Source: [Ruminococcus] torques ATCC 27756
GTDB taxonomy: Bacteria; Bacillota; Clostridia; Lachnospirales; Lachnospiraceae
Length of the DNA: 64,000 bases
NCBI RefSeq assembly: GCF_000153925.1
Contig: NZ_DS264344.1
Span: 62,001-126,000 of the forward strand
Reading direction: 5' to 3'
Part shown: one piece after another, positions 1 to 15,026 of the stretch
Position numbering within the stretch: position 1 is the stretch's first letter
Layout of the letters: each line of letters opens with the position of its first letter
The notes under the pieces: generated by a model
The model's input: the letters and a program-made list of their open reading frames with translations, nothing else
Told to the model about the DNA's origin: nothing
The model's database searches: none
Position numbers and translations under genes: made by a program

Positions 1-2
1 AG

Positions 3-1526
3 ATTTTGACCGGAAGAAAGAATGGATATATTTCCGATGAGCACTTTTCAGAGGATTCCGGTTATACAAATCCGGAAGAAAGTGAACATGACTTCTTCAA
101 TGTAGGTCACACTTCGACCTCAGTTTCTTTAGCTACGGGTCTGGCTAAGGCGAGAGATATAAAAGGAGATAAAGAAAATATTATTGCAATTATTGGTGAT
201 GGCTCCCTCTCAGGCGGTGAAGCACTAGAGGGATTGAATGTAGCTGGATCAGAGATTAACTCCAATTTAATTATTATAGTAAATGATAATGAGCAGTCGA
301 TTGCCGAAGTACATGGCGGAATGTATAAAAATCTTGCCGAATTAAGAGAGACAGGCGGAACTGCTTCCAATAATCTCTTCAAAGCGTTTGGATTAGATTA
401 TATATATGAGGAAAACGGCAATGACATAGCATCACTGATTTCCTTATTCCGCAAGGTGAAAGATACGGATCATCCAATCGTAGTCCATATCCATACACAA
501 AAAGGAAAGGGATATGAGATTGCTGAAAAAGACAAAGAGGGATGGCATTGGTGTATGCCATTTGACCGTGAAACAGGCAAACCAACAATCTCTTTTGGCG
601 ATGGAGAAGATTATACATCTATCACTGCTGAGTATATTATGCGAAAAGCAAAAAGTGATTCTGAGCTTCTTGTGATTACTCCTGCTATGCCGGGCAGTGC
701 AGGCTTAAATCAGGAACAGCGAAAGGAGCTTGGATTGCAGTATGTGGATGTAGGGATTGCGGAAGAACAGGCGGTTGCCATGGCATCTGGTGCTGCAAAA
801 AACGGTGCGAAGCCGCTTGTGGTTACAAACACAACCTTTATTCAAAGAGCGTATGACCAGATTTCCCATGATGTATGTATTAACAATAGTTCTGTCACGA
901 TTCTCTTAAACTACAATTCTTTTGATAGTTTGACAGATGTTACGCATCTTGGAATTTTTGGACTGGCGGCATACACGAATGTTCCGAATCTGGTAGTGCT
1001 TGCACCTACCTCAAAAGATGAATACCTTTCTATGCTTGATTGGTCAGTTGATCAAAGGGAACATCCTGTTATGATTCTCATCCCCGGAAATCAGGTAACC
1101 TATCGTGAAGCAGATAAGGATTTTGACAGACTGAATCATTTTAAAGTGGAAGAAGCTGGTGAAAAGGTTGCAATTCTGGCACTTGGTGATTTTTATCAGC
1201 GTGGTGAACAGCTCAGTGCAAAAATAAAAGCAGAACTTGGCTTTACGCCGACATTGATCAATCCTCGTTTTGCTTCTGGTATTGACAAAGAATTACTGGA
1301 AAGTCTTTCCGAAAGACATCAGATGGTAATAACCATGGAAGACGGTATTTTAAGCGGCGGTTTTGGCGAGAAAATAGCTTCCTTCTATGGTAGTTCTGAT
1401 ATGAAAGTGAAAAATTACGGACTTGATAAGAAATTTTATGACCGATATGACCCAAATGAATTACTGAAAGAGGTTGGTATGACACCGGTTCAGATTATTG
1501 CGGATATTTGCAATCAGATAAAATAG
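3..1526 (+). CDS. 1-deoxy-D-xylulose-5-phosphate synthase-like transketolase (5' end outside window)
   Basis: A thiamine-diphosphate enzyme of the DXS/transketolase superfamily, expected to condense pyruvate with an aldehyde acceptor such as glyceraldehyde 3-phosphate. The frame is open to the window edge, so the N-terminus is missing; DXS proteins of this type run near 580-620 residues and about 507 are seen. Visible are GHTSTSVS, the TPP-binding motif starting GDGSLSGGEALEGLN and continuing to VNDN, then the pyrimidine-binding half with the conserved Glu in DVGIAEEQAVAMASG, and the C-terminal transketolase domain. No isoprenoid gene is adjacent (ispH is 38 kb away), so this may be an accessory DXS-like copy rather than the housekeeping one. 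A specific substrate cannot be assigned. Confidence 0.8.
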   Translation: MLTGRKNGYISDEHFSEDSGYTNPEESEHDFFNVGHTSTSVSLATGLAKARDIKGDKENIIAIIGDGSLSGGEALEGLNVAGSEINSNLIIIVNDNEQSIAEVHGGMYKNLAELRETGGTASNNLFKAFGLDYIYEENGNDIASLISLFRKVKDTDHPIVVHIHTQKGKGYEIAEKDKEGWHWCMPFDRETGKPTISFGDGEDYTSITAEYIMRKAKSDSELLVITPAMPGSAGLNQEQRKELGLQYVDVGIAEEQAVAMASGAAKNGAKPLVVTNTTFIQRAYDQISHDVCINNSSVTILLNYNSFDSLTDVTHLGIFGLAAYTNVPNLVVLAPTSKDEYLSMLDWSVDQREHPVMILIPGNQVTYREADKDFDRLNHFKVEEAGEKVAILALGDFYQRGEQLSAKIKAELGFTPTLINPRFASGIDKELLESLSERHQMVITMEDGILSGGFGEKIASFYGSSDMKVKNYGLDKKFYDRYDPNELLKEVGMTPVQIIADICNQIK

Positions 1527-1554
1527 AAATTGGGAGGCTGGAAGTAGTGACACC

Positions 1555-1689
1555 AGAATTGTAATTCCGGGTTCAAGCAATACTGATCACATCATGGAGA
1601 ACACGCAGTTGTATGATTTTGAATTAACTGACGAAGAGATGGAGCAGATTGAGGCTTTGGAAAAAAATGAGAAGCATGACTGGTACTAA
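1555..1689 (+). pseudogene. Aldo/keto reductase, C-terminal remnant
   Basis: The frame reads RIVIPGSSNTDHIMENTQLY and then DFELTDEEMEQIEALEKNEK before HDWY and a stop. This is the typical end of an aldo/keto reductase: the VIPGSSN NADPH-binding segment followed by the LTDEEM helix. There is no start codon with a ribosome site and nothing of the barrel upstream; the preceding bases belong to the DXS-like gene. About 45 of roughly 280 residues survive, so this is a deletion remnant marking a past rearrangement immediately after the DXS-like gene. Confidence 0.75.
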
Positions 1690-1720
1690 GATTGAAGAAT
1701 AAAAAGATAAGGTGATGGAA

Positions 1721-2251
1721 ATGAAGATATTAGTATTAAATGGAAGTCCACATCCACAGGGAAGTACAAAAGATATGGTTAATGCATTTAAGAAAGGAGC
1801 TGAGAGTGCAGGATATATCGTTGATGTGGTGGATGTATGCAAAAAGAAGATAGGTGGGTGTTTGGCATGTGAATACTGTCATAGCAAAGGACACGGTGAG
1901 TGTATTCAGAAGGATGATATGCAGGAAGTATATAATCTTTTGAAAGAAGCAGAAATGCTTGTTATTGCATCGCCCATTTATTATCACGGCATATCCGGTC
2001 AGCTAAAATGTGTAATCGACAGATTTTATTCTGCGGCATATCCGAGAGGACCGAAGAATTTGAAAAAAGTTGCCATGATACTTAGCTCCGGAGATGCTAA
2101 TATGTATGAGGGTGCTCTTTTCTCGTTCAAAGGAGACTTTCTGGATTATCTTGGACTTGAAAACATGGGTGTGTTTACAGCACATGGGTCTGAAAACAAG
2201 AGCGAGAAAAAGAGAGAAGAACTAAGGGCGTTCGGGGCATCGCTGCGTTAG
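1721..2251 (+). CDS. Flavodoxin-fold NAD(P)H-dependent FMN reductase family protein
   Basis: A cytoplasmic FMN-binding oxidoreductase of the NADPH-dependent FMN reductase / iron-sulfur flavoprotein group. It opens with MKILVLNGSPHPQGST, the phosphate-binding loop of the family, and has a CxxC-type segment (GGCLACEYCHSKGHGEC, about residues 45-61) seen in flavoproteins that carry a cluster or redox cysteines. The motif ASPIYYHGISGQLKCVIDR binds the flavin ring. The start at 1721 is chosen because AAGGTG at 1709-1714 lies 6 nt upstream; ATG 1715 and GTG 1712 are too close to it. At 177 residues it is complete. Partner and substrate are unknown. Confidence 0.85.
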   Translation: MKILVLNGSPHPQGSTKDMVNAFKKGAESAGYIVDVVDVCKKKIGGCLACEYCHSKGHGECIQKDDMQEVYNLLKEAEMLVIASPIYYHGISGQLKCVIDRFYSAAYPRGPKNLKKVAMILSSGDANMYEGALFSFKGDFLDYLGLENMGVFTAHGSENKSEKKREELRAFGASLR

Positions 2252-2345
2252 GTAAATTCCATTTGGCGAGATGTCGATAGACCATAAAATTGTTTTTTTC
2301 TAAAGCAGACTATTGATTGTATTTATATTAAGTTTTCAACAACAA

Positions 2346-2382
2346 TGTAACCATTGAAATTACATCTGTTTTTTGATATGAT
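2346..2382 (+). promoter_or_regulatory. Promoter of the Rrf2 gene with overlapping TGTAA-N9-TTACA operator
   Basis: TGTAA at 2346-2350 and TTACA at 2360-2364 form an inverted repeat with a 9-nt spacer. A -35 TTGAAA (2354-2359) lies inside it, and 17 nt further is a -10 TATGAT (2377-2382). A repressor on this site would block RNA polymerase. The same operator recurs three times before the next gene, which suggests autoregulation by the Rrf2 protein encoded just downstream. The binding itself is inferred. Confidence 0.65.
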
Positions 2383-2406
2383 TACTGTCAAAGAGAGGTG
2401 TTTATA

Positions 2407-2841
2407 ATGCAGATTTCAAGCAGATTTACAATGGCAATCCATATGTTTGCCTGTATAGATACATTTTCAGATCAGAAGATGACTAGTGATTTTATGGCAG
2501 CAAGCATTGGAACTAATCCGGTGATTGTTCGTAAAATATTGCAACAATTAAAGGCTGCTGGTCTTATTGAAGTTGCAAGAGGGACAGGCGGTGTGACAAT
2601 TACCAGACCATTGGAGCAGATTACATTCCTTGATGTGTATAAAGCAGTGGAATGTGCACCAGATGAAGAACTGTTTCATTTTCATGAGAATCCCAATCAG
2701 AAATGTCCGGTAGGAAAGAATATTCACCATGTTCTTGATAAGAGACTGTTAGAAGTACAGAAGGCAATGGAGGAAAAACTTTCAGAAATGACACTTGCTG
2801 ATGTGAAAAAAGATATTGCAGTGTATACAGAGGAAGAGTAG
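2407..2841 (+). CDS. Rrf2 family transcriptional regulator
   Basis: A winged-helix repressor of the Rrf2/BadM family. The N-terminus MQISSRFTMAIHMF, the recognition region TNPVIVRKILQQLKAAGLIE and the wing GTGGVTIT are all present. Of the three cysteines that bind Fe-S clusters in IscR/NsrR-type members, only Cys83 and Cys100 are seen in the sensor loop, so it resembles the YwnA-like subgroup whose ligand is not a standard cluster, possibly a thiol or flavin redox signal. ATG 2407 is preferred over GTG 2398 because GAGAGGTG ends 6 nt before it. The protein is complete at 144 residues. TGTAA-N9-TTACA repeats at its own promoter and before the next gene suggest its regulon. Confidence 0.9.
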   Translation: MQISSRFTMAIHMFACIDTFSDQKMTSDFMAASIGTNPVIVRKILQQLKAAGLIEVARGTGGVTITRPLEQITFLDVYKAVECAPDEELFHFHENPNQKCPVGKNIHHVLDKRLLEVQKAMEEKLSEMTLADVKKDIAVYTEEE

Positions 2842-2848
2842 CCTACAG

Positions 2849-2900
2849 AAGGCTTCGGATGAGTGATTATACCATCACAATTTCCGGAGCCTTTTTGTTT
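2849..2900 (+). terminator. Rho-independent terminator after the Rrf2 gene
   Basis: AAGGCTTCGGA (2849-2859) pairs with TCCGGAGCCTT (2883-2893) with one mismatch, followed by TTTTTGTTTTT. Confidence 0.8.
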
Positions 2901-2932
2901 TTCATAATCAATGTAAAATCTTCAAAAGGAGT

Positions 2933-3029
2933 TGTAACAAAAAAAGTTACAAAAAGCTTGATGTAACTATTGACATTACATTAAACGAATGATATTGTAT
3001 AGCTACAAGATGTAATAATCATTGTTACA
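2933..3029 (+). promoter_or_regulatory. Three TGTAA-N9-TTACA operators around a TTGACA promoter
   Basis: Perfect TGTAA-N9-TTACA repeats occur at 2933-2951, 2962-2980 and 3011-3029. The middle one overlaps a consensus -35 TTGACA (2970-2975); 17 nt on is TATTGT (2993-2998) as -10. The third would sit just downstream of the transcription start. This triple arrangement is typical of a tightly repressed promoter. The same sequence on the Rrf2 gene promoter makes that regulator the likely binder. Confidence 0.7.
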
Positions 3030-3052
3030 ACATATCAAGGAGGTAATTTAAA

Positions 3053-3448
3053 ATGCAGAAAGTAGTAGAATTTTTACAGAAAAACCCGGTTCAGTATTTA
3101 GCAACCGTCGGAAGAGATGGAAAGGCAAAATGCCGTCCATTCATGTTCTGTTTTGAGCAGGACGGAAAGCTTTGGTTCTGTACTAACAACACAAAGGATG
3201 TTTACAAGGATATGTTAGCAAATCCTGAAGTAGAAGTATCAGTATCTTCCCCTGAATACGCATGGATTCGCCTTCATGGCAAAGCAGTATTTGAGGACAA
3301 CAAGAGTGTAAAGGAAGGATGCATGAACAATCCTATCGTTAAGGGACAGTATCAGACAGCAGATAATCCTATTTTTGAGGTATTCTATCTTGAAAATCCG
3401 CATGGTTTAATCGCAGATTTCTCTGGAAATCCACCTTATGAATTTTAA
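3053..3448 (+). CDS. Pyridoxamine 5'-phosphate oxidase (PPOX) family flavoprotein
   Basis: A 131-residue split-barrel flavin-binding protein. The N-terminal NPVQYLATVGRDGKAKCRPF is the usual first strands of the PPOX/general-stress FMN-binding fold, followed by LWFCTNNTKDVYKDM and the VSVSSPEYAWIRLHGKAVF strand. Such small members bind FMN, F420 or heme and reduce various substrates; the substrate here is unknown. A strong ribosome site AAGGAGG lies 8 nt before ATG 3053. It is monocistronic: an FMN riboswitch with its own terminator follows. The three presumed Rrf2 operators upstream indicate repression relieved by a redox or chemical signal. Confidence 0.88.
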   Translation: MQKVVEFLQKNPVQYLATVGRDGKAKCRPFMFCFEQDGKLWFCTNNTKDVYKDMLANPEVEVSVSSPEYAWIRLHGKAVFEDNKSVKEGCMNNPIVKGQYQTADNPIFEVFYLENPHGLIADFSGNPPYEF

Positions 3449-3473
3449 AGATAATTAACAGAAAAAATTACAG

Positions 3474-3576
3474 TCTTCGGGGCAAGGTGTAATTCCTGAC
3501 CGGCAGTATAGTCTGCGAGCAAAAGCTGATATGGTGCAATTCCATAACCGACGGTAAAGTCCGGATGAGAGAAGAT
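3474..3576 (+). ncRNA. FMN riboswitch (RFN element)
   Basis: The conserved blocks appear in order: TCTTCGGGGCAAGGTG, AATTCCTGACCGGC, the AGTATAGTCTGCGAGC arm, TATGGTGCAATTCC, ATAACCGACGGTAAAGTCC and GGATGAGAGAAGA. The closing helix joins TCTTC at 3474 to GAAGA near 3571. Binding of FMN normally favours the following terminator. It lies directly upstream of a RibU-type transporter gene, as expected for control of riboflavin uptake. Confidence 0.95.
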
Positions 3577-3590
3577 ATGATAAAACAAGT

Positions 3591-3622
3591 CCCGCAGGGA
3601 ATCCCGTCCTGCGGGCTGTTTT
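3591..3622 (+). terminator. Expression-platform terminator of the FMN riboswitch
   Basis: CCCGCAGG (3591-3598) and CCTGCGGG (3608-3615) form an 8-bp GC-rich stem followed by CTGTTTT. It lies between the aptamer and the ribU ribosome site, so the switch probably works by transcription attenuation of the whole downstream operon. Confidence 0.88.
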
Positions 3623-3654
3623 AAATTCAGGCATATCTCACAAAAAGGAGATTT

Positions 3655-4278
3655 ATGAGTAACAATACAGCAACTATTAAAACAAGAAAAAATTTAGTTT
3701 CTACAAGAACGATAACAATGACAGCTCTACTGGCAGCTATATCATATGTGTTGGCATTTTTAGAGTTTCCGGTTCCTTTGAGTCCATCATTTGCACGAAT
3801 GGATCTGTCAGATTTACCTGCACTGATTGGGACGTTTGCGTTTGGACCGGTTACAGGAGTGATGATAGAATTGATAAAAAATATATTACAGCTTCTGTCA
3901 ACATCAACAGGAGGAATTGGTGAACTTGCCAATTTCCTAATGGGGGCATCCTATGTACTGGCTGCCGGTTTTATATACAAATACAAAAAGACTAAGAAAA
4001 TGGCGAGGTGGGCATGTGTTATTTCAAGTGTGGTTATGGGAATAGCGGCAGCGATTGCAAATTATTTTATTCTACTTTCACTGTTTGAAACATTTATGCC
4101 TCTGGAGCAGCTGATTGCATCATTTGGCGAATTTCTGCCATTTATTAAGACTAAGCTGGACGTTGTTCTATTCAATGCATTGCCGTTTAATATCTTAAAA
4201 GGCTTGGTAATTGGAGCAATTACCATGATGATATATAAAAAACTTACACCGATACTGAAAGGAGAGACTTTGAAATGA
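3655..4278 (+). CDS. ribU: Riboflavin ECF transporter substrate-binding (S) component, RibU-like
   Basis: A 207-residue integral membrane protein with about six hydrophobic segments that captures riboflavin and works with a shared ECF energising module (EcfA/A'/T, not in this window). The segment ALLAAISYVLAFLEFPVPLS followed by PSFARMDLSDLPALIGTFAFG is characteristic of the RibU group of ECF S components. The FMN riboswitch directly upstream supports riboflavin as substrate. AAAAGGAG lies 5 nt before ATG 3655. It heads an operon: the next three genes each start within the last codons of the one before (ATGA overlaps), so the riboswitch should control all four. Confidence 0.9.
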   Translation: MSNNTATIKTRKNLVSTRTITMTALLAAISYVLAFLEFPVPLSPSFARMDLSDLPALIGTFAFGPVTGVMIELIKNILQLLSTSTGGIGELANFLMGASYVLAAGFIYKYKKTKKMARWACVISSVVMGIAAAIANYFILLSLFETFMPLEQLIASFGEFLPFIKTKLDVVLFNALPFNILKGLVIGAITMMIYKKLTPILKGETLK

Positions 4279-4889
4279 CAAAAATGGATTATCTTGAACT
4301 TCTGGTGGATGAAATTCATTCAACAACAGTTGCAACGATAGGTTCAGATGGACATCCTCAGACAAGAATCATAGATATGATGTACTATGATGAAGAAGGT
4401 GTGTATTTCCTTACAGCAACGGGAAAAACATTTTATGACCAGTTAATGGAGCAGCAGTATGTGGCAATATCCGCAACAAAAGACAAAATTGCGGTGTCTC
4501 TGCGTGGAAAAATAAAGAACATCGGAAAAAAGAATCTTGATATTATGTTTGAAAAAAATCCATATATGAAGAAAATCTATCCGGGAGATACGAAAGACGC
4601 AATCGAAGTGTTTCGGCTGTATGAGGCACAGGGAGAGTATTTTGATATCAGCAATCCATCAAATATTGTGAGGGATACTATAACAATTGGAAAAACCGAG
4701 GCAGTTCAGACAGGGTATTTTATTGGAAAAGAATGTATTGGATGCAAACTGTGTTACTCTGTATGTCCGCAAAAATGCATTGATATATCTTCAGTTCCGG
4801 TTACTATCAACCAGAATCATTGTCTGCATTGCGGAAGATGTGCAGAAATTTGTCCGAAGCAGTGTATTGAGAAAAGAGGTTCATTATGA
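4275..4889 (+). CDS. PPOX-family flavoprotein fused to a 2[4Fe-4S] ferredoxin domain
   Basis: The N-terminal ~140 residues are a PPOX split barrel that should bind a flavin (STTVATIGSDGHPQTRIIDM, then VYFLTATGKTFYDQLM). The C-terminal ~55 residues hold two 4Fe-4S binding motifs: CIGCKLCYSVCPQKC and CLHCGRCAEICPKQC. The fusion predicts electron transfer from ferredoxin clusters to a flavin-bound substrate. It overlaps ribU by 4 nt and the sirtuin gene by 4 nt, so it is translationally coupled inside the FMN-riboswitch operon. Its flavin demand fits the riboflavin transporter upstream. Its link to the ADP-ribosylation pair downstream is inferred from context only. Confidence 0.87.
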   Translation: MTKMDYLELLVDEIHSTTVATIGSDGHPQTRIIDMMYYDEEGVYFLTATGKTFYDQLMEQQYVAISATKDKIAVSLRGKIKNIGKKNLDIMFEKNPYMKKIYPGDTKDAIEVFRLYEAQGEYFDISNPSNIVRDTITIGKTEAVQTGYFIGKECIGCKLCYSVCPQKCIDISSVPVTINQNHCLHCGRCAEICPKQCIEKRGSL

Positions 4890-5830
4890 TTTTTAAGAAA
4901 ATCAGAAAAGGGTATGCTGACTGGAGAAACTTTTTATGTAGTACTCCGGCAAGGGATTATGTATTCCAAAAGGATGCATATGAAGACCAGATTGACAGGG
5001 CAGCAAAGAATATAAGAAATACAGACTGTGTTATAATCGGGGCAGGAGCCGGGGCATCGACAGCTGCGGGAATCCAATATGGTGGTAAAAGGTTTACAGA
5101 CAATTTTGCAGAATTTATAAAAAAATACGGTGAGTACTACATGACAGATATGTATGCAGCCGGATTTTATCCATATCCGTCTGAGGAGGCAAAGTGGGGA
5201 TACTGGTCAAAACATGCATTGATGAACCGCTTTGATCCTCCGGCATTGCCGCTTTATACAGAGCTTTATGATCTTGTAAAGAATAAAGAATATTTTGTAC
5301 TTACAACCAATGTGGATCATCAGTTTTATAAAGCGGGATTCGATGAAAAAAGAATATTTGCAACACAGGGAGATTATGGGAAAATCCAGTGCCAGAAAGC
5401 CTGTCATTCAAAGACTTACGATGCAAAAGACCTGTTTCGTAAAATGGATAAAGCAAGAAGAGACTGCCTGATTCCATCAGAACTTGTACCAAAATGTCCG
5501 GTGTGTGGCGGCAATATGGCTATGAATCTCCGTTGTGATAATTATTTTGTGGAAGATGAAGCGTGGCATGAGGCAGCCGACAGGTATGCGGGGTTTCTGG
5601 AACAGTATAAAGATAAAAAGGTTGTTCTTTTGGAACTTGGAGTTGGATTTAATACGCCGATTATTATACGTTTCCCTTTTGAAAAGATGGTGAGGGAGAA
5701 CTCGTCTTATAGTTTGATACGCCTGAATATGGATGAAGCGGTAGTTCCGGAAAGCTTCGGGGAACGTGCAATCGGTATTGGCGGTGATATGGCAAAGGCA
5801 ATTACTGATATAAGGGGGCTGGTATTATGA
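4886..5830 (+). CDS. SirTM-type (class M) sirtuin, probable protein ADP-ribosyltransferase
   Basis: A 314-residue Sir2-fold protein that uses NAD+. The nucleotide loop is IIGAGAGASTAAGI (residues 50-63). The second NAD motif is TTNVDHQFYKAG (140-151). The catalytic His of deacetylase sirtuins (the HG motif) is replaced by Gln161 in FATQGDYG, as in the SirTM class, which ADP-ribosylates proteins rather than deacetylating them. Cys169, Cys173, Cys204 and Cys207 form the zinc ribbon. The next gene is the zinc macrodomain hydrolase that always pairs with SirTM. In known clusters the target is a lipoylated GcvH-like protein made beside a lipoate ligase; neither is found here, so the target in this operon is open. 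Confidence 0.88.
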   Translation: MIFKKIRKGYADWRNFLCSTPARDYVFQKDAYEDQIDRAAKNIRNTDCVIIGAGAGASTAAGIQYGGKRFTDNFAEFIKKYGEYYMTDMYAAGFYPYPSEEAKWGYWSKHALMNRFDPPALPLYTELYDLVKNKEYFVLTTNVDHQFYKAGFDEKRIFATQGDYGKIQCQKACHSKTYDAKDLFRKMDKARRDCLIPSELVPKCPVCGGNMAMNLRCDNYFVEDEAWHEAADRYAGFLEQYKDKKVVLLELGVGFNTPIIIRFPFEKMVRENSSYSLIRLNMDEAVVPESFGERAIGIGGDMAKAITDIRGLVL

Positions 5831-6603
5831 CACAGGATGAGCGAAGAGAATATCTGATTCAGTATCTTTTAAAAGAAGAAATACCGTTTGGCAGACAGAA
5901 CATTCCTACGGATAAGCAGGGGCAGGAAAATCTGCTCCGCTCACTTATGAATGTCAGACCGCCAAGACCAATCAGTAATGATTTTTTGAAAATACAGGAT
6001 GAGTATCTTACAGAAAGAAATATAGAGCGTGGAATTACAGATGTTGACACGCTTGCACCTGTAAAATCCGATTCGAGATTATATATCTGGCAGGGGGATA
6101 TTACCACTTTGAAATGTGATGCGATCGTGAATGCGTGTAACTCACAGATGCTTGGTTGTTTTTCACCGATGCATGCCTGTATTGATAACTTTATTCATAC
6201 TTATGCTGGAATGGAACTGCGTCTGAAAATGCATGAAATTATGGCAAAGCAGGGGCAGGAAGAAGAGACCGGCAAAGCAAAGATAACATCGGGATACAAT
6301 CTTCCGACAAAATATATTCTTCATACGGTAGGACCTATTATACAATGGAAAGTCACAAAAGAAGATGAAGACCTGTTGGCAAGCTGCTACACAGAGTGCC
6401 TAAAGCTTGCAGCTGATACTGGTGTGGAATCTATTGCATTCTGTTGTTTGTCTACAGGTGTATTCCGTTTTCCACAGCAACGAGCTGCCGAGATTGCAAC
6501 GAACACTGTAAAGCAGTATCTTAACAAAGACAGCAGAATAAAAAAGGTAATCTTTAATGTGTTTAAAGATGAAGATTTAAAAATATACAGTGGATTGTTA
6601 TAA
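5827..6603 (+). CDS. Zinc-containing macrodomain protein-ADP-ribose hydrolase (SirTM partner)
   Basis: A 258-residue macrodomain of the type coded next to SirTM sirtuins, expected to remove ADP-ribose from the sirtuin's target. The ADP-ribose-binding motifs are WQGDITTLKCDAIVNACNS (residues 88-106) and STGVFRFP (209-216). Between them GCFSPMHACID supplies Cys111, His116 and Cys118, the zinc ligands and active-site loop of this subclass. An N-terminal ~80-residue helical extension is also a family trait. It overlaps the sirtuin gene by 4 nt and is the last gene of the FMN-riboswitch operon, giving a write-and-erase pair in one transcript. Confidence 0.9.
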   Translation: MTQDERREYLIQYLLKEEIPFGRQNIPTDKQGQENLLRSLMNVRPPRPISNDFLKIQDEYLTERNIERGITDVDTLAPVKSDSRLYIWQGDITTLKCDAIVNACNSQMLGCFSPMHACIDNFIHTYAGMELRLKMHEIMAKQGQEEETGKAKITSGYNLPTKYILHTVGPIIQWKVTKEDEDLLASCYTECLKLAADTGVESIAFCCLSTGVFRFPQQRAAEIATNTVKQYLNKDSRIKKVIFNVFKDEDLKIYSGLL

Positions 6604-6716
6604 GCGTTTGTTGAAATATCCGATAAATCTTATTGTACTGTTACTGCCTGAGAATGTGATTTATATTGGAATCCGATGTTAAGTGAACGACTGGTGGGAA
6701 GAGCGAGAATATTATT

Positions 6717-6754
6717 AAAAAAAGTGGACAGTTCACCAATTGGGGGCTGTCCAC
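6717..6754 (-). terminator. Terminator for the minus-strand small gene
   Basis: GTGGACAG (6724-6731) and CTGTCCAC (6747-6754) form a perfect 8-bp stem. Read on the minus strand it is followed by seven T (complement of A 6717-6723). It lies about 50 bp past the stop of the minus-strand gene. Confidence 0.85.
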
Positions 6755-8869: not shown

Positions 8870-9274
8870 ATGAACAAAACAATCTTAATGGGAAGACTGA
8901 CAAAAGATCCAGAGGTGAAATATCTCCAGGATGAAAACAGTACTGCAATGGCACGATACACGCTGGCAGTAGACAGACGATATCGAAAGGATGGAAAGGC
9001 AGAAACAGATTTTATTTCTTGTGCCACCTTTGGGAAGAATGCTGAGTTTGCAGAAAAATATCTGAAAAAAGGTTTGAAGATTTTAGTAAGCGGACGGATC
9101 CAGACAGGAAGCTATGTGAATCAGGAGGGGAATAAAGTTTATGCCACCAACGTGATTGTAGAAGAACATTATTTCGCAGAAGGGAAGAAACTGTCAGGAG
9201 CAGAAAAGAAAGAAGATACCGATCCAGATGGATTTATGCATCTTCCAGACGGAGAGGAACTTCCGTTTAAGTAA
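8870..9274 (+). CDS. ssb: Single-stranded DNA-binding protein (mobile-element copy)
   Basis: A 134-residue OB-fold SSB. It starts MNKTILMGRLTKDPEVKY and has the conserved ARYTLAVDR...DFISCATFGKNAEFAEKYL...LVSGRIQTGSY...YATNVIVEEHYF core. The C-terminus ends DGEELPFK, close to the usual acidic DDDIPF tip that recruits partner proteins. It would coat single-stranded element DNA during transfer and replication. GAAAGGAG lies 8 nt upstream of ATG 8870. As first gene of the element it is separated from the DUF3847-like gene by a 200-bp gap that contains the candidate oriT. Confidence 0.93.
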   Translation: MNKTILMGRLTKDPEVKYLQDENSTAMARYTLAVDRRYRKDGKAETDFISCATFGKNAEFAEKYLKKGLKILVSGRIQTGSYVNQEGNKVYATNVIVEEHYFAEGKKLSGAEKKEDTDPDGFMHLPDGEELPFK

Positions 9275-9302
9275 GAAAAACTCGGATGCTGAAAGCAAAA
9301 GA

Positions 9303-9340
9303 GCGCACTTATATACCTTACAAGGTATGTGCGTCCTACG
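9303..9340 (+). other. Candidate origin of transfer (oriT) with hairpin and MobQ-like nick sequence
   Basis: ATACCTT-AC-AAGGTAT (9313-9328) is a perfect 7-bp inverted repeat. It is flanked by GCGCAC (9303-9308) and GTGCGT (9329-9334), which extend the pairing. Immediately after the stem comes GTGCGTCCT (9329-9337). The RSF1010/MobQ-type oriT likewise has an inverted repeat followed by a GTGCGCCCT-like nick region. It lies in the gene-free gap upstream of a relaxase of that family, where an oriT is expected. Confidence 0.6.
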
Positions 9341-9476
9341 GAAGTAGCATCTTTCTGAAGGGGAATTCCGAAAGTGTTTGCGGATGCTCCATCCGAAGAA
9401 GGGTTCCCCTTCCGGCAGAAATGCCTATCCCATAACAGAGAAAATTGAAGAGTTGAAAAAGGAGAAAAAGAACGAT

Positions 9477-9899
9477 ATGGCGAAGAAGAAAACATTTCAG
9501 GAATATACTCAGGAAGCGCTTCTTGAGATTGAAAAAACAGAAGCTGCATTGAAACAGGCAAAGCTTGAGAAGGAACAGGCAGAGCATAGGATCCAGAGAT
9601 CCTTGAACTATCTAGATACACAGAAAAAGAAAAAACGAAAGGCACGAACCCATCTGTTGATTCAGAAAGGAGCAGCCATAGAAGCAATCTGTAAAGATAC
9701 CAAATATCTGACAGAGGCAGAATTTTATCAGTTGATGGATGAACTTCTTCATGATCCCGCTTGTAAGTTTTGTGATGTCGTTCATGAAATGGTTCGTGGA
9801 CGGGCGGAAACTGCAGAAGCAAAAGAACGAGAATTAGCAGAAGAGGAAGCATTATTAAAGGCGATGCAACGAGGTGAACTGCCACAGGGAGATGAGTAA
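9477..9899 (+). CDS. DUF3847-like coiled-coil protein preceding the relaxase
   Basis: A 140-residue charged protein. Residues ~5-60 form a long Lys/Glu-rich coiled coil (LEKEQAEHRIQRSLNYL is part of it). The C-terminal half has the block KGAAIEAICKDTKYLTEAEF and an acidic helical tail. It matches, from memory, the DUF3847 proteins found just before MobA/MobL relaxases in clostridial elements and could be an accessory protein of the relaxosome; that role is inferred from position. ATG 9477 is used because it follows an AAAAAGGAG site; the frame extends upstream, across the area after the candidate oriT, without a good start. Its stop lies 2 nt before the relaxase start. Confidence 0.75.
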   Translation: MAKKKTFQEYTQEALLEIEKTEAALKQAKLEKEQAEHRIQRSLNYLDTQKKKKRKARTHLLIQKGAAIEAICKDTKYLTEAEFYQLMDELLHDPACKFCDVVHEMVRGRAETAEAKERELAEEEALLKAMQRGELPQGDE

Positions 9900-9900
9900 G

Positions 9901-11448
9901 ATGGGATGTTATCACTTTCATCTGAATCAATTATCCAGAGGAAAAGGACAGTCTGCCATTGCCAGTGCTGCTTACCGAGCCGGTACAAAACTGGAATGTA
10001 CGTATTATGGAGAAGTAAGTGATTATACGAGAAAAGGCGGTGTGGTATTAGCGGAGATCCATCTTCCCAAACAGGCTCCGGAGAGATTCAAAGACAGGGA
10101 GACCCTTTGGAATGAGGTGGAATGGATTGAAGGAAACAAGAAAGCACAGCTGGCACACAGCTTTGATATTGCCTTGATGAATGAGTTTTCTATGGAAGAA
10201 AATATTGAGCTTGCAAGAAGATTTGTGGAAGAACAGTTAGTTGCAAGAGGGATGATCGCAGATCTGGCAATCCATGATCCGAAGAAGGCAAAGGATAAAA
10301 TTCCCAATCCCCATATGCACATCATGGTTCCCATCCGCCCTTTAAAGGAAGATGGCACCTGGGGACAAAAACAAAAAAAGGTTCCAGTACTGACACCGGA
10401 TGGACAGCCGGTTCTGAATCAGAAAGGACAACTGGTATTTCGGGCGGTACATACAACGGATTGGAGCAGGAAAGAAACCTTGGAAGAATTGAGAAGTGCC
10501 TGGGCGAAGATGTGCAATGAACTGTATGAAGAAAAAGGACTTACAGAAAGAGTCGATGCCAGATCTTATGAGGAACGGGGGATTGATAAGATCCCGATGG
10601 TGCATGAAGGACCGAATGTACAAGCAATGGAAGCACGAGGAATTTCCACTGCACCGGGAAGTTTAAACCGACTCATCCGAGCCTTAAATGATATGAAAGA
10701 ACGGGCAAAGAATCTTCTTCAATGGTCTTTGCTTCGACAAAGCCAGTTGATGGAACGGATGCTGTTCTTACATCAGCCAACCTTAGCGGATTATCTAAGA
10801 AACTATTATGACAAGAGAAATGCAGTCGCAGAATCCTACGCTTATGGAACACAAAAGGCGAAGAATACAAATCTGAAACAATTTGCAGAGACGATTCGCT
10901 TTCTGGAAGAGCAGGATGTGAGAACCCCGGAACAGCTGACAGAGAAAATCCAGGAATTCGATACGCAGCTGAATGAAGTGAGCCAGCGGTTGAAAAAACA
11001 ACTGGCTGCTTTACAAAGGGTCAATGTTAACCTTTATGCAATGAAAGAGTATTTTGAAACGAGACCTGTTTATCTGGAATTAAAGAACAAATATTTTGGC
11101 AGGGAAAAATTCAAAGAGGAACATAAGAAGGAACTTAGCGGATATTATCGTTCGGAAAGGATCTTAAAAGAAAATCTGGATGCGAATGGAAAAATACCAG
11201 AAGGAAAATGGAAGCGAGAAGCAGATTGTTTATCGGAAGAGATTGCTGCTTTACGAAAAGAAGATAAACGGATCCATGCCATGTTACGAAAGTATGAGAA
11301 AGTCAAAAATCATGTGGAAGTTTTGATGGCAGAGGAAGGAGAAGGTGTCTCTCTTCCAGAAACAAACAAACGGGAGCAATCCACAGAAACAAAAGAAGCA
11401 GTGAGAACCATGAAACCAAAGAAGAAACATCATGGAATGGAATTATAG
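9901..11448 (+). CDS. mobA: MobA/MobL family relaxase (MobQ class)
   Basis: A 515-residue mobilization relaxase that nicks oriT and leads the transferred strand. The N-terminal HUH-type domain is clear: CYHFHLNQLSRGKGQSAIA and SAAYRAGTKL (with the candidate catalytic tyrosine), the long helix ending LARRFVEEQLVARGM, and the metal-binding HMHIMVPIRPL. The C-terminal ~250 residues are helical and charged and lack a recognisable helicase or primase fold, unlike RSF1010 MobA. GGGAG at 9887-9891 supports ATG 9901; ATG 9892 in the same frame is an alternative that overlaps the upstream gene. The candidate oriT lies 560 bp upstream. No type IV secretion genes are nearby. Confidence 0.92.
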   Translation: MGCYHFHLNQLSRGKGQSAIASAAYRAGTKLECTYYGEVSDYTRKGGVVLAEIHLPKQAPERFKDRETLWNEVEWIEGNKKAQLAHSFDIALMNEFSMEENIELARRFVEEQLVARGMIADLAIHDPKKAKDKIPNPHMHIMVPIRPLKEDGTWGQKQKKVPVLTPDGQPVLNQKGQLVFRAVHTTDWSRKETLEELRSAWAKMCNELYEEKGLTERVDARSYEERGIDKIPMVHEGPNVQAMEARGISTAPGSLNRLIRALNDMKERAKNLLQWSLLRQSQLMERMLFLHQPTLADYLRNYYDKRNAVAESYAYGTQKAKNTNLKQFAETIRFLEEQDVRTPEQLTEKIQEFDTQLNEVSQRLKKQLAALQRVNVNLYAMKEYFETRPVYLELKNKYFGREKFKEEHKKELSGYYRSERILKENLDANGKIPEGKWKREADCLSEEIAALRKEDKRIHAMLRKYEKVKNHVEVLMAEEGEGVSLPETNKREQSTETKEAVRTMKPKKKHHGMEL

Positions 11449-11463
11449 GAGGAATTTTAGAAG

Positions 11464-13371
11464 ATGGAAGAATATACAAGAGAACAGCTTCAAAGAGCAG
11501 ATGATACCGATTTATATGTTTTTCTTTCTGGGAGAGGAGAACAGTTCAAACGATGTGGAAAGGAATACCGGTGGTTACGACATGACAGTGTGATGATCAA
11601 CAAGAACGAATGGTATCGTTTTAGTCAGAATAAAGGCGGTCATGCCATCGATTTTATGAAAGAATTCTACGGTCTTTCTTTTGCAGAGGCAGTCAAAGAA
11701 TTATTAGGAGAAGAGGGAGTTGGAGAAACCAACAGAAGAACGGCGAAGGAAGATGCAGGCAGACAGAAGGTCTGCCCCATCCCCTTGCCTGGATTGGAAT
11801 TGCCAGAAAGAAATGAAAGCTGTGAGATTGCAAGGAAGTATCTCATTGAACAGAGAAAACTATCGGAACAACTGGTAGATCAGATGATTGAAAAGGGGGA
11901 TATTTATGAAAGTAAAAACTATCACAATGTGGTGTTCGTTGGAAGAGATAAAGAACAGAATCCCAGATATGCAGCTATGCGTGGAACTGATGAGAACAGA
12001 TATCGTGGGGAGGCAAGAGGTTCGGAAAAAGCCTATGGATTTGGCCATATAGGAACGGATGAAAAACTGTTTGTGTTTGAATCTCCCATTGATCTTTTGT
12101 CTTATATCACTGCAGTTCCAGAAGAATGGGAAAAGCATAGTTATATTTCCCTGGGAGGATTGAGTGAAAAAGCAATGAAACGGATGTATACAGAATATCC
12201 TCATATCCATTCCATCTACTTGTGTCTGGATAATGATGAGCCTGGAAATGAGAGATGCAGGCAGTTTGTTTCTCTTATTCCGGAGGAACTGAGTGTGTAC
12301 CGATTAGAACCGGTGAAGAAAGACTGGAATGAATGTCTGGTAGCAGAAGTTCCGGTAGAAAATATGGCAAAGCAGATGTGTTGGAGAGATGCCAGGGAAA
12401 AACCAGTTCCGGTCATGAAGATGTCGGAGGTTGAGGAAACGGTGGTTCAGTGGTTATGGTATCCGTTCATTCCCTTTGGAAAGGTTACTTTGATCCAGGG
12501 GAATCCGGGAAAAGGAAAAACATGGCTTGCAATGGCAATCGCCGCATACTGTACGAATGGAAAAGAACTTCCCAATGCACTTCCCATAGAACCCTTTAAT
12601 GTGTTGTATCAAACAGCAGAGGATGGGATAGCAGATACCATTAAGCCTAGATTAGCGAAATGTGGTGCAGATATGACAAGGGTGCGATTCATCAATGAAG
12701 AAGAAAAACAGCTTTCTATGACGGACGATCGGATTGAAAAAGCCATCCGCCAGAACAATGTACGACTCATGATCATGGATCCCATACAGGCTTATCTGGG
12801 ATCCAATGTGGATATGAACCGGGCAAATGAGATCCGTCCCTTATTCCGGCATCTCAGTACGATTGCAGAGAGAACTGGATGTGCCATTGTTCTCATTGGA
12901 CATTTGAATAAGTCATCGGGAAGTCAGAGCGATTACCGTTCCCTGGGATCCATTGATATTGCAGCGGCAGTACGAAGCATCTTATTTGTAGAAAAGGTGG
13001 AAAAAGAGAAGGAACAGGATATCCGAGTAGTATATCAGCAAAAGGATTCTCTTGCTAAGAAGGAAAATCCGGTAGCGTTTTCTTTAGGAGAAGGAGGCTT
13101 AAAATGGTTAGGAGAATACGATATATCCATTGAAGATCTGCTGATGGGGAAAGCAGGAACGAAAAAGGAAACGAAACTGGAAAAGGCACAGAAGTTGATC
13201 CTGGAGTTATTAACCAAACGAAAAGTAATGTGTTTAGAAGAATTAGAGGCAGAACTACTAGCCTATGGGATTTCTTCCAGAACAGGAAGAGATGCAAGAA
13301 AACAGTTGGAAAACAGATTGAGCTACGACTGGTGTCAGGGAAGAAAAACAGTTGCGTTAATCACAGAATAA
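11464..13371 (+). CDS. Toprim-domain / RepA-like helicase replication protein
   Basis: A 635-residue two-part protein. The N-terminal half is DUF3991/Toprim-like: residues ~1-85 resemble a CHC2-type primase zinc region without the usual cysteines (ending GHAIDFMKEFYGLSFAEA), and the Toprim core is seen as FVFESPIDLLSYIT...SLGGLSEKA...YLCLDNDEPGNE. The C-terminal half is a RecA/RepA-like ATPase with Walker A GNPGKGKTWLA, a Walker B region LMIMDPIQAYLG and VLIGHLNKSSGSQSDYRSLG. The last ~70 residues look like a winged helix. It probably primes and unwinds element DNA after transfer. AGGAGG lies 14 nt upstream and 15 nt separate it from the relaxase, so the two are co-transcribed. Confidence 0.87.
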   Translation: MEEYTREQLQRADDTDLYVFLSGRGEQFKRCGKEYRWLRHDSVMINKNEWYRFSQNKGGHAIDFMKEFYGLSFAEAVKELLGEEGVGETNRRTAKEDAGRQKVCPIPLPGLELPERNESCEIARKYLIEQRKLSEQLVDQMIEKGDIYESKNYHNVVFVGRDKEQNPRYAAMRGTDENRYRGEARGSEKAYGFGHIGTDEKLFVFESPIDLLSYITAVPEEWEKHSYISLGGLSEKAMKRMYTEYPHIHSIYLCLDNDEPGNERCRQFVSLIPEELSVYRLEPVKKDWNECLVAEVPVENMAKQMCWRDAREKPVPVMKMSEVEETVVQWLWYPFIPFGKVTLIQGNPGKGKTWLAMAIAAYCTNGKELPNALPIEPFNVLYQTAEDGIADTIKPRLAKCGADMTRVRFINEEEKQLSMTDDRIEKAIRQNNVRLMIMDPIQAYLGSNVDMNRANEIRPLFRHLSTIAERTGCAIVLIGHLNKSSGSQSDYRSLGSIDIAAAVRSILFVEKVEKEKEQDIRVVYQQKDSLAKKENPVAFSLGEGGLKWLGEYDISIEDLLMGKAGTKKETKLEKAQKLILELLTKRKVMCLEELEAELLAYGISSRTGRDARKQLENRLSYDWCQGRKTVALITE

Positions 13372-13376
13372 AAGAT

Positions 13377-13442
13377 GACATTGGCAAAAAACTACGTTGG
13401 CATTGGCAGTCTTTATAGATACCTTTGCCAGCCGCCAATGTC
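13377..13442. repeat. Inverted repeat between the replication gene and xis
   Basis: GACATTGGC (13377-13385) and GCCAATGTC (13434-13442) are perfectly complementary, with TTGGCA/TGCCA further inside. It begins within 6 nt of the replication-protein stop and ends before the xis ribosome site. There is no U-run, so it is more likely a protein-binding or recombination site, or a leader structure, than a terminator. Confidence 0.55.
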
Positions 13443-13473
13443 AAAAACAAAGATAATAGAAGGAGGCATACAA

Positions 13474-13677
13474 ATGACAAGTTATGATATACCTTATTGG
13501 AAGAAGTATACATTATCTATTGAAGAGGCAGCATCCTATTTTCGTATTGGAGAAGGAAAGCTTCGTAAGTTAGTCAGTGACAATCCAAATGCAGAGTATT
13601 TACTTTGGAATGGGAATCGTGTACAGATAAAACGAACAAGATTTGAAAAATTTATTGATACACTCAGTGCGATATAA
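13474..13677 (+). CDS. xis: Excisionase (Tn916 Xis-like)
   Basis: A 67-residue basic winged-helix DNA-binding protein directing excision by the adjacent integrase. The start [20 protein letters not shown] and the segment [11 protein letters not shown] with a C-terminal [11 protein letters not shown] match the Tn916-type Xis family. ATG 13474 is chosen because AGGAGG lies 8 nt before it; the same frame is open upstream over the inverted repeat but with no ribosome site. It is followed 86 nt later by int, the standard arrangement in Tn916-like modules. Confidence 0.88.
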
Positions 13678-13710
13678 AATGAAATTTAAAATAAGGAGGT
13701 GTTCGAATTA

Positions 13711-13748
13711 GGGGTTACATGATATACTAACAATATCATGTTGCGTCC
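13711..13748 (+). promoter_or_regulatory. Stem-loop between xis and int
   Basis: ACATGATAT (13717-13725) and ATATCATGT (13733-13741) form a perfect 9-bp stem with a 7-nt loop, flanked by GGGG (13711-13714) and CCCC (13745-13748). It ends 15 nt before the int start and directly before GGAGG. It could modulate int translation or bind a recombination protein. An AAGGAGG at 13693 just upstream has no long reading frame behind it. Confidence 0.5.
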
Positions 13749-13763
13749 CCTTGGAGGTAGGAT

Positions 13764-15026
13764 ATGATTTCAAAGAGACGTGATGATAAAGGCAGAGTTC
13801 TCCAGCAAGGAGAATGGCAGGAACCAAGTGGACGTTATCGCTATAAATATACAGATTCACTTGGTAAGCGTAAAATATTATATAGTTGGAGATTGACAGA
13901 AGCAGATAAGATGCCGGAAGGTAAACGGGCAGATCTTTCTCTCAGGGAAAAAGAAAGAAAAGTTCAGTCCTTACAGATGCAAGGGATTACAGGAAGTAAC
14001 ATTACAGTGATTGAACTTGTGGAACGATATCTTTCCCTGAAAACAGGAGTAAAGCATAATACATTAGCGAATTACAAATTTGTGGTGAATGTATTGAAAA
14101 AGGAAGAATTTGCGTATAAGAAAGTGGATGATGTGAAACTCTCTGATGCAAAGATTTTTCTGATAAAACTACAGAGAGATGGTAGAGGATATAGTTCCAT
14201 TCATTCCATCAGAGGTGTTTTAAGACCTGCTTTTCAGATGGCTGTGGATGATGACTTGATTCTAAAAAATCCATTTGGATTTGAATTAGGTACAGTACTT
14301 GTTAATGACAGTCAGAAAAGACAAGCTGTTTCTCTGGAAGATGAAGCAAAATTTCTCGAGTTTGTAAAGAATGATCCACATTATAATCAGTATTATGATG
14401 CATTTTATATCTTATTCAAGACAGGTCTTAGAATATCTGAATTTTGTGGGTTTACTGTAAAAGACTTGGACTTTAAAGAAGATATTATCAATGTGAATCA
14501 TCAGTTGCAAAGAACTCGAGAAATGAAGTATATCATCGTATCTACAAAGACAACAAGTGGTACTCGGTTACTTCCAATGGAAGCGGATGTAAAAGAAGCA
14601 TTTCTTCGAATCTTGAAGAATAGAAGGAAACCAAAACGTGAGCCGATGGTGGATGGATATGGAGGGTTTCTGTTTCTGGACAAGAATGGAAGGCCAATGG
14701 TTGCACTTCACTGGGAAAAGTACATGCAGCATGCAAGAGAAAAATATAATCGTGAGCATTTGTTGCAATTGCCGCCAATTACTCCTCATGTATGCAGGCA
14801 TACTTATTGTACCAATATGGCCAATTCAGGGATGAACCCAAAGACACTGCAATATCTGATGGGACATTCAGATATATCTGTAACACTCAATATTTATACG
14901 CACACCGGCTATGATGATGCAAAGAAAGAACTTTCCAGATTAAAAGAAGCAAGGGATGAACTGGAAAAGAAAAAGTTTGTAACCCAAAAACATGCACAAA
15001 TAACTCATGTAAGCCTTATTTCATAA
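13764..15026 (+). CDS. int: Tyrosine recombinase / integrase, Tn916 family
   Basis: A complete 420-residue integrase. The N-terminal arm-type DNA-binding domain begins SKRRDDKGRVLQQGEWQEPS and continues with GRYRYKYTDSLGKRK, as in Tn916 Int. The core-binding domain follows (about 75-165). The catalytic residues are visible: Arg in FKTGLRISEFCGF, Lys in IIVSTKTTSGTRLLP, His-x-x-Arg in TPHVCRHTYCTNMA, His in YLMGHSDISVT and the nucleophile in IYTHTGY. GGAGG lies 9 nt before ATG 13764. As last gene it marks the right end of the element and presumably sits next to the right attachment site. Confidence 0.95.
   Translation: MISKRRDDKGRVLQQGEWQEPSGRYRYKYTDSLGKRKILYSWRLTEADKMPEGKRADLSLREKERKVQSLQMQGITGSNITVIELVERYLSLKTGVKHNTLANYKFVVNVLKKEEFAYKKVDDVKLSDAKIFLIKLQRDGRGYSSIHSIRGVLRPAFQMAVDDDLILKNPFGFELGTVLVNDSQKRQAVSLEDEAKFLEFVKNDPHYNQYYDAFYILFKTGLRISEFCGFTVKDLDFKEDIINVNHQLQRTREMKYIIVSTKTTSGTRLLPMEADVKEAFLRILKNRRKPKREPMVDGYGGFLFLDKNGRPMVALHWEKYMQHAREKYNREHLLQLPPITPHVCRHTYCTNMANSGMNPKTLQYLMGHSDISVTLNIYTHTGYDDAKKELSRLKEARDELEKKKFVTQKHAQITHVSLIS

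Follow-up and report, generated by a model that had tools for sequence, protein, structure and literature searches.

What controls a class M sirtuin (SirTM) and the zinc-containing macrodomain (Zn-Macro) encoded beside it, and on what could the pair act, when their operon does not encode GcvH-L, the only known SirTM target (PMC11490716; cited here, like the other papers below, from part of its text)? The question is raised by a stretch of 64,000 nucleotides from [Ruminococcus] torques ATCC 27756 (contig NZ_DS264344.1, positions 62,001 to 126,000; hereafter the window), in which a flavin mononucleotide (FMN) riboswitch precedes genes for a riboflavin transporter (ribU), a PPOX-ferredoxin fusion (PPOX-Fd), SirTM and Zn-Macro. 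The targets and physiological role of SirTM/Zn-Macro systems other than that of GcvH-L have been called elusive (PMC11490716). The answer that we lean towards, with modest confidence, is that the pair belongs to a thiol-redox or electrophile-stress module that carries a lineage-specific, internal FMN gate.

Operator-like sites and probable redox regulators around SirTM

The layout described in the initial annotation was borne out, namely the FMN riboswitch, its terminator, ribU, PPOX-Fd, a SirTM with Gln161 and a Zn-Macro with the zinc loop Cys111/His116/Cys118, with a 4-nt overlap at each junction from ribU to the Zn-Macro gene. The riboswitch does stand before these four genes, but most likely not at the head of the operon, since an Rrf2-family repressor gene, a gene for a single-domain PNPOx-fold protein (PPOX1) and four operator sites, all overlooked earlier, lie upstream of it (Table 1). 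In the SirTM, Gln161 replaces the catalytic His and Asn142 and Arg216 are retained, in agreement with 111 of 111 aligned SirTM rows; the zinc loop is found in 88 of 88 aligned macrodomain rows, and the N-terminal extension of Zn-Macro is present, residues 1-258 aligning to 8rsi.

All four upstream sites match exactly the repeat TGTAA-N9-TTACA, known as the operator of SifR and HypR (PMC9218516). Four exact copies in the window compare with 0.07 expected, and none of 100 shuffles reached that number; the whole 2.7 Mb genome holds 10 copies, these four included, against 5 for the backward control. The operator before the Rrf2 gene is overlapped by a promoter-like site (2354-2382), no promoter-like site on the plus strand was listed within 2998-3718, and the riboswitch begins only 20 nt 3' of the PPOX1 stop codon. 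The operon most likely starts upstream, at the Rrf2-type operator and promoter, with the riboswitch internal to it, and flavin status would therefore be a secondary gate.

The repressor itself has 1ylf and YwnA (1xd7) as its best matches in the PDB. Its Cys100 aligns with the YwnA structure and is invariant in the 41 Rrf2 proteins encoded near SirTM genes, 33 of which also have Cys83. SifR senses quinones through one Cys, at the position of the YwnA CPV cysteine (PMC9218516). The operator recurs in 40 of the 41 Rrf2-bearing loci near SirTM, as compared with 19 of 80 other loci, and in 39 of the 41 no more than 300 bp separates it from one end of the Rrf2 gene; several of the loci counted are near-copies of each other.

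We propose that SirTM and Zn-Macro would act as a reversible ADP-ribosylation pair within an operon that responds to thiol-redox or electrophile stress, for example by quinones. The Rrf2 repressor, of the YwnA/SifR/HypR group, would bind TGTAA-N9-TTACA over its own promoter and over that of PPOX1, and modification of Cys100 would free it from the DNA, allowing PPOX1 and all downstream genes to be transcribed. When FMN is abundant the riboswitch would terminate transcription between PPOX1 and the remaining genes, and full output of RibU, PPOX-Fd, SirTM and Zn-Macro would be expected only under stress combined with low FMN. PPOX1 and PPOX-Fd may serve the stress response as flavin or flavin/Fe-S reductases, and SirTM would place a mono-ADP-ribose mark on at least one protein, which Zn-Macro would take off again. 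A broader version, which we put forward tentatively, is that a two-input switch (Rrf2 for thiol or electrophile stress, the riboswitch for low FMN) governs the enzymes that write and erase ADP-ribosylation, along with their flavin/Fe-S partners, as a general arm of Lachnospiraceae quinone/thiol-stress regulons; the targets could be redox proteins or cysteines within them.

Table 1. Features of the SirTM operon and its surroundings, in window coordinates.
Feature	Position	Strand	Evidence or remark
Block common to several genera (approximate extent)	2294..6625	+	
Rrf2-type operator TGTAACCATTGAAATTACA	2346..2364	+	exact TGTAA-N9-TTACA before the Rrf2 gene; spacer includes -35-like TTGAAA
Rrf2-family repressor, YwnA/SifR/HypR-like	2407..2841	+	Cys100 in KCPVG motif; Pfam Rrf2 111.6 bits (open reading frame starting at 2398)
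Second exact operator-like repeat	2933..2951	+	before PPOX1
Operator TGTAACTATTGACATTACA	2962..2980	+	covers -35-like TTGACA of the probable PPOX1 promoter
Fourth exact operator-like repeat	3011..3029	+	before PPOX1
PPOX1, single-domain PNPOx-fold protein	3053..3448	+	first gene of the probable operon; PNPOx_N 50.9 bits
FMN riboswitch aptamer (RFN element)	3469..3580	+	RF00050, 109.2 bits against a gathering cut-off of 66.2
Terminator hairpin with T tail	3591..3615	+	probable expression platform
ribU, energy-coupling factor (ECF) riboflavin transporter S component	3655..4278	+	best PDB match 3p5n 'Riboflavin uptake protein', E 1e-34
PPOX-ferredoxin fusion (PPOX-Fd)	4275..4889	+	PNPOx-type split barrel plus two 4Fe-4S motifs
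SirTM, class M sirtuin	4886..5830	+	best PDB match 5a3a, E 7.5e-53
Zn-macrodomain, predicted ADP-ribose hydrolase	5827..6603	+	NF003163, 358.8 against 272 bits; 8rsi, E 1e-79

The distribution of these genes was followed in 200 Lachnospiraceae genera, 85 of which have a SirTM of the window's type and 48 a strong PPOX-Fd; the first number leaves out divergent sirtuins of about 29-36% identity (the best matches of G027, G058, G102, G118, G159 and G195), and the second rests on 52 matches, those under 94 bits being left out. For the neighbourhoods, 80 SirTM regions from 78 genomes were joined by loci L001 and L052 into a panel of 82, of which 76 were analysed, the other six having no SirTM open reading frame of at least 250 amino acids. 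Neither genera nor loci are independent, and p-values are therefore guides; draft contigs also conceal some linkages. Within 6 kb of SirTM, an Rrf2 gene was found in 15 of the 76 loci, an HxlR gene in 30, at least one of them in 43 and both in 2. HxlR and DUF24 are names of one family. Among 65 of 72 HxlR rows (seven under 60 bits were left out) from 30 of the 80 SirTM genomes, 17 genes lie within 6 kb of SirTM where 0.24 were expected. The other neighbours that recur include nitroreductase, NAD(P)H-binding reductase, flavin reductase-like, radical SAM/SPASM, DUF1848, ABC transporter and LysR-type genes.

A second arrangement, with radical SAM/SPASM and nitroreductase genes 5' of SirTM, is seen in L140, L146, L180 and L169; parts of it are shared by some of these loci only, namely PPOX-Fd (L140, L146, L180), DUF1848 (L169, L180) and HxlR (L140, L146). 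Elsewhere, two or three divergent sirtuin genes of about 30% identity to the window's SirTM stand in tandem (G118:C14:36958-39531, G025:C18, G102:C1 and G026:C44).

That Rrf2 or HxlR regulators recur while the neighbouring enzymes vary would also be expected if SirTM modified cysteines or another general target during electrophile stress, the variable neighbours (PPOX, nitroreductase, NAD(P)H-binding reductase, radical SAM) being parallel detoxifiers instead of substrates. Retention of SirTM without an intact PPOX-Fd in several genomes agrees with this explanation, and Zn-Macros are able to cleave Cys-ADP-ribose (PMC11490716). The SirTM site that is known is, however, Asp27 of Streptococcus pyogenes GcvH-L (PMC11490716), and we hold this possibility to be rather unlikely as it stands.

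Position and distribution of the FMN riboswitch

The RFN element is the sole RNA family match above its cut-off in the window (cmscan). The genome has a second ribU-like gene, on contig C37 and 32% identical to the window's, and two more riboswitches, one 5' of that gene and the other 5' of riboflavin biosynthesis genes that were recognised by eye. An intact riboswitch was recognised by the covariance model in L051, L052, L053, L055, L056 and G132, and by pattern in L054, and it occurs with two distant SirTM lineages; L057 and L058 retain only stretches from beyond the aptamer.

Riboswitch control is common for ribU, and the riboswitch could serve ribU alone in the window as well, SirTM and Zn-Macro having come to lie downstream through assembly of the cassette with no need for a flavin input. 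Several relatives in which the riboswitch is absent or decayed do keep the rest of the genes, as this explanation would have it. Against it, a stop at the riboswitch terminator should touch all four genes because of their 4-nt overlaps. Moreover, ribU in L051 has an in-frame deletion of 333 bp and the riboswitch and terminator before it are intact, and in G132 an intact aptamer stands before PPOX-Fd, Macro and SirTM genes with ribU present as remnants only. We find it unlikely that the riboswitch concerns ribU only.

A stress module with an internal FMN gate, the reading that we prefer, has to be weighed against a number of observations that speak against one or another of its parts. The best NCBIfam match of the repressor is HypR at 55.7 bits, under the cut-off of 180, and its Cys16 is as invariant as Cys100 (41 of 41), unlike in the one-Cys SifR class. 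Promoter-like sites are not commoner in the window than in shuffles (19 versus 17.9), and in 33 of the 76 panel loci neither Rrf2 nor HxlR lies within 6 kb. As for the gate, of the 80 SirTM genomes only three (G000, which is the window's own, G025 and G132) have an above-cut-off riboswitch adjoining SirTM, a count made with stricter filters and on draft contigs; the 3' half of the G132 terminator was not seen by eye; and the aptamer is decayed in G171 (48.9 bits, before PPOX-Fd with no ribU between, the sole SirTM match lying on a different contig) and reduced to a half in G019 (29.6 bits, before PPOX-Fd, Macro and SirTM genes). G046 was left out of the count, as its riboswitch is about 6 kb from SirTM and precedes a ribU that points away from it. 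The count rules out that riboswitch-led SirTM operons are general.

The riboswitch and ribU thus seem to have been lost repeatedly among relatives, and the data point to the flavin riboswitch as something added in particular lineages and not the core of the SirTM system. It had first been supposed that ADP-ribosylation is tied to flavin status; in that form the idea is not supported, given that the riboswitch is most likely internal, rarely adjoins SirTM and, like ribU, is deleted or decayed in several relatives.

PPOX-Fd and other candidate targets

The predicted structure of PPOX-Fd (AlphaFold2, mean predicted local distance difference test score 90) has its best fold match in 2hhz, a PNPOx-related protein. 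The initial annotation had named this protein as a possible target, and one may go further and suppose that PPOX-Fd is the substrate of SirTM and that its reversible ADP-ribosylation is switched mainly by flavin status. The genes adjoin and overlap, and the gene order is not unique to this genome, since other genera show the same order and in 30 of the 200 PPOX-Fd lies no more than 3 kb from SirTM (31 of the 52 strong matches). SirTM is present in 47 of the 48 genera with PPOX-Fd (Fisher p 5e-21), and even where PPOX-Fd is more than 3 kb from any SirTM the genome still carries one in 17 of 18 cases, or in 16 of 17 when G179, with its gap of 3.6 kb, is set aside (binomial p 1e-5). The linkage also occurs in both gene orders.

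An intact PPOX-Fd lies within 4 kb of SirTM in 22 of the 76 panel loci. The evidence on the other side comes from genomes in which the companion is missing and from the SirTM tree. We picked 15 SirTM genomes for having no intact PPOX-Fd beside SirTM, together with L058, which has one; nearly all are metagenome-assembled genomes (MAGs) of unstated completeness. Of those 15, three have a near-full-length PPOX-Fd match elsewhere (G268, G269, G272), four show remnants (G257, G259, G260, G263), and the other eight have only general ferredoxin-type matches, at E 4.6e-8 or weaker. A macrodomain match was found near SirTM in 14 of the 15 loci, L071 having none. On the tree of 111 SirTM rows a minimum of 26 changes is needed to explain the linkage of PPOX-Fd, and well-supported branches force 19 of these; the total is hardly below the mean of 29.4 for shuffled states (38 of 500 shuffles were as low). 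The riboswitch is not generally conserved.

Because SirTM persists in several genomes without an intact PPOX-Fd, in some with only a remnant and in others with no specific match, an obligate role of PPOX-Fd as target is unlikely, and the case for it is weaker than it first appeared. Within the genomes compared here it is a frequent companion that comes and goes. We judge it improbable that PPOX-Fd is the substrate with flavin status as its main signal; PPOX-Fd remains a candidate target in the window's own lineage. Natural fusions involving these proteins (P0004, P0020, P0094 and P0120) appear by eye to be products of frameshift, deletion or chimerism, each on one contig, and were not taken as evidence.

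GcvH was also considered as a target and rejected. Its absence, noted from the start, is confirmed for the genome, which has no PF01597 match; the accompanying statement that a lipoate ligase is missing stands for the proteins of the operon, which is where LplA was looked for. Across the 200 genera GcvH shows no association with SirTM: of 27 genomes with GcvH at E <= 5.7e-30 (weaker matches being uncounted), 12 carry SirTM (Fisher p 0.84).

The shared block and known SirTM systems

The stretch from the Rrf2 gene to the macrodomain gene is 94-99% identical in several genera, and its edges suggest that it probably moves as a unit. The high identity begins at window position 2294-2337 in L051 to L056 and ends at 6625 (L053, L056) or 6728 (L054), just past the macrodomain gene, at about 7340 in L051 and L052 (the latter the Coprococcus catus locus), and inside the macrodomain gene in L055. 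Upstream of the block, L052, L055 and L056 have no match to the window and L053 has 176 bases only; part of the upstream flank is shared by L051 (window 1-1686) and L054 (window 1684-2301). Direct repeats, 83-85% alike, flank the block in L051 (68 nt), L052 (110 nt) and L054 (105 nt); no repeat pair was found in the window between 1600 and 7400.

Some further observations concern the same surroundings. The flanking repeats lie at 2424-2533 and 6890-6999 in L052 and at 3267-3371 and 7733-7837 in L054, as if the block stood between direct repeats about 4.5 kb apart, and window 6619-6723 resembles (83%) the sequence just before the block in relatives. The copy in L053, 96.7% identical to the window's, is in a MAG labelled Paenibacillaceae, where a mis-binned contig is possible. 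In L055 (6935-10297) the block's macrodomain gene is truncated, and just downstream comes another Macro-SirTM pair, 55% and 42% identical. In the window, genes that by eye resemble those of a mobile element (single-strand binding protein, relaxase, primase, integrase) occupy 8870-15026, starting 2.3 kb past the macrodomain gene.

Sharing between several genera could also befit an anti-phage or other defence unit, which we consider very improbable, as SirTM, the macrodomain and PPOX-Fd have no PADLOC match and most of the genes that recur nearby are redox genes or regulators of such genes.

In the open-licence literature, covered largely by listing, no report of FMN-riboswitch, Rrf2 or HxlR control of SirTM was found. 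In a word search of the text at hand, 'ferredoxin', 'flav' and 'pyridoxamine' were absent from PMC11490716, and PMC4518038 had 'flav' three times and 'ferredoxin' not at all. The operator sites, regulators and companion reductases described here point to a testable signal, namely thiol or quinone stress, narrow the partners down to a few and supply gut-commensal loci in which the role of SirTM could be tested.

One of the closest known systems is the extended SirTM operon of Staphylococcaceae and Lactobacillales, in which GcvH-L, Zn-Macro, SirTM and LplA2 are accompanied by an old yellow enzyme (OYE) and a luciferase-like monooxygenase (LLM), and for which a role in oxidative stress has been proposed (PMC4518038, PMC11490716); a likely role in intracellular survival and oxidative stress was described for the Staphylococcus aureus sirTM operon (PMC12710355). 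The window's operon shares with the extended one the Gln-for-His SirTM, the adjoining Zn-macrodomain and flavin-type oxidoreductases nearby, but neither GcvH-L nor LplA2 is among its proteins, and it has instead the PPOX and PPOX-Fd flavoprotein families, Rrf2-type operators and the FMN riboswitch. The occurrence of SirTMs in Lachnospiraceae has been noted, and so have SirTM/macrodomain pairs that form operons of their own (PMC4518038); the same two enzymes adjoin in the window, though here they are embedded in a block of seven genes that has its own regulator, PPOX-type proteins and a riboswitch. In its aptamer, terminator and ribU the locus resembles the FMN riboswitch-ribU units (RF00050), from which it differs by the PPOX-Fd, SirTM and Zn-Macro genes after ribU and by an aptamer set inside a longer probable operon. 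Finally, an Rrf2 repressor with a CPV-type Cys, TGTAA-N9-TTACA operators (predicted here) and reductase genes recall the SifR/YwnA quinone-sensor regulons (PMC9218516), whereas the second invariant cysteine of the window's repressor, Cys16, and a SirTM/Zn-Macro pair in the controlled operon set it apart from them.

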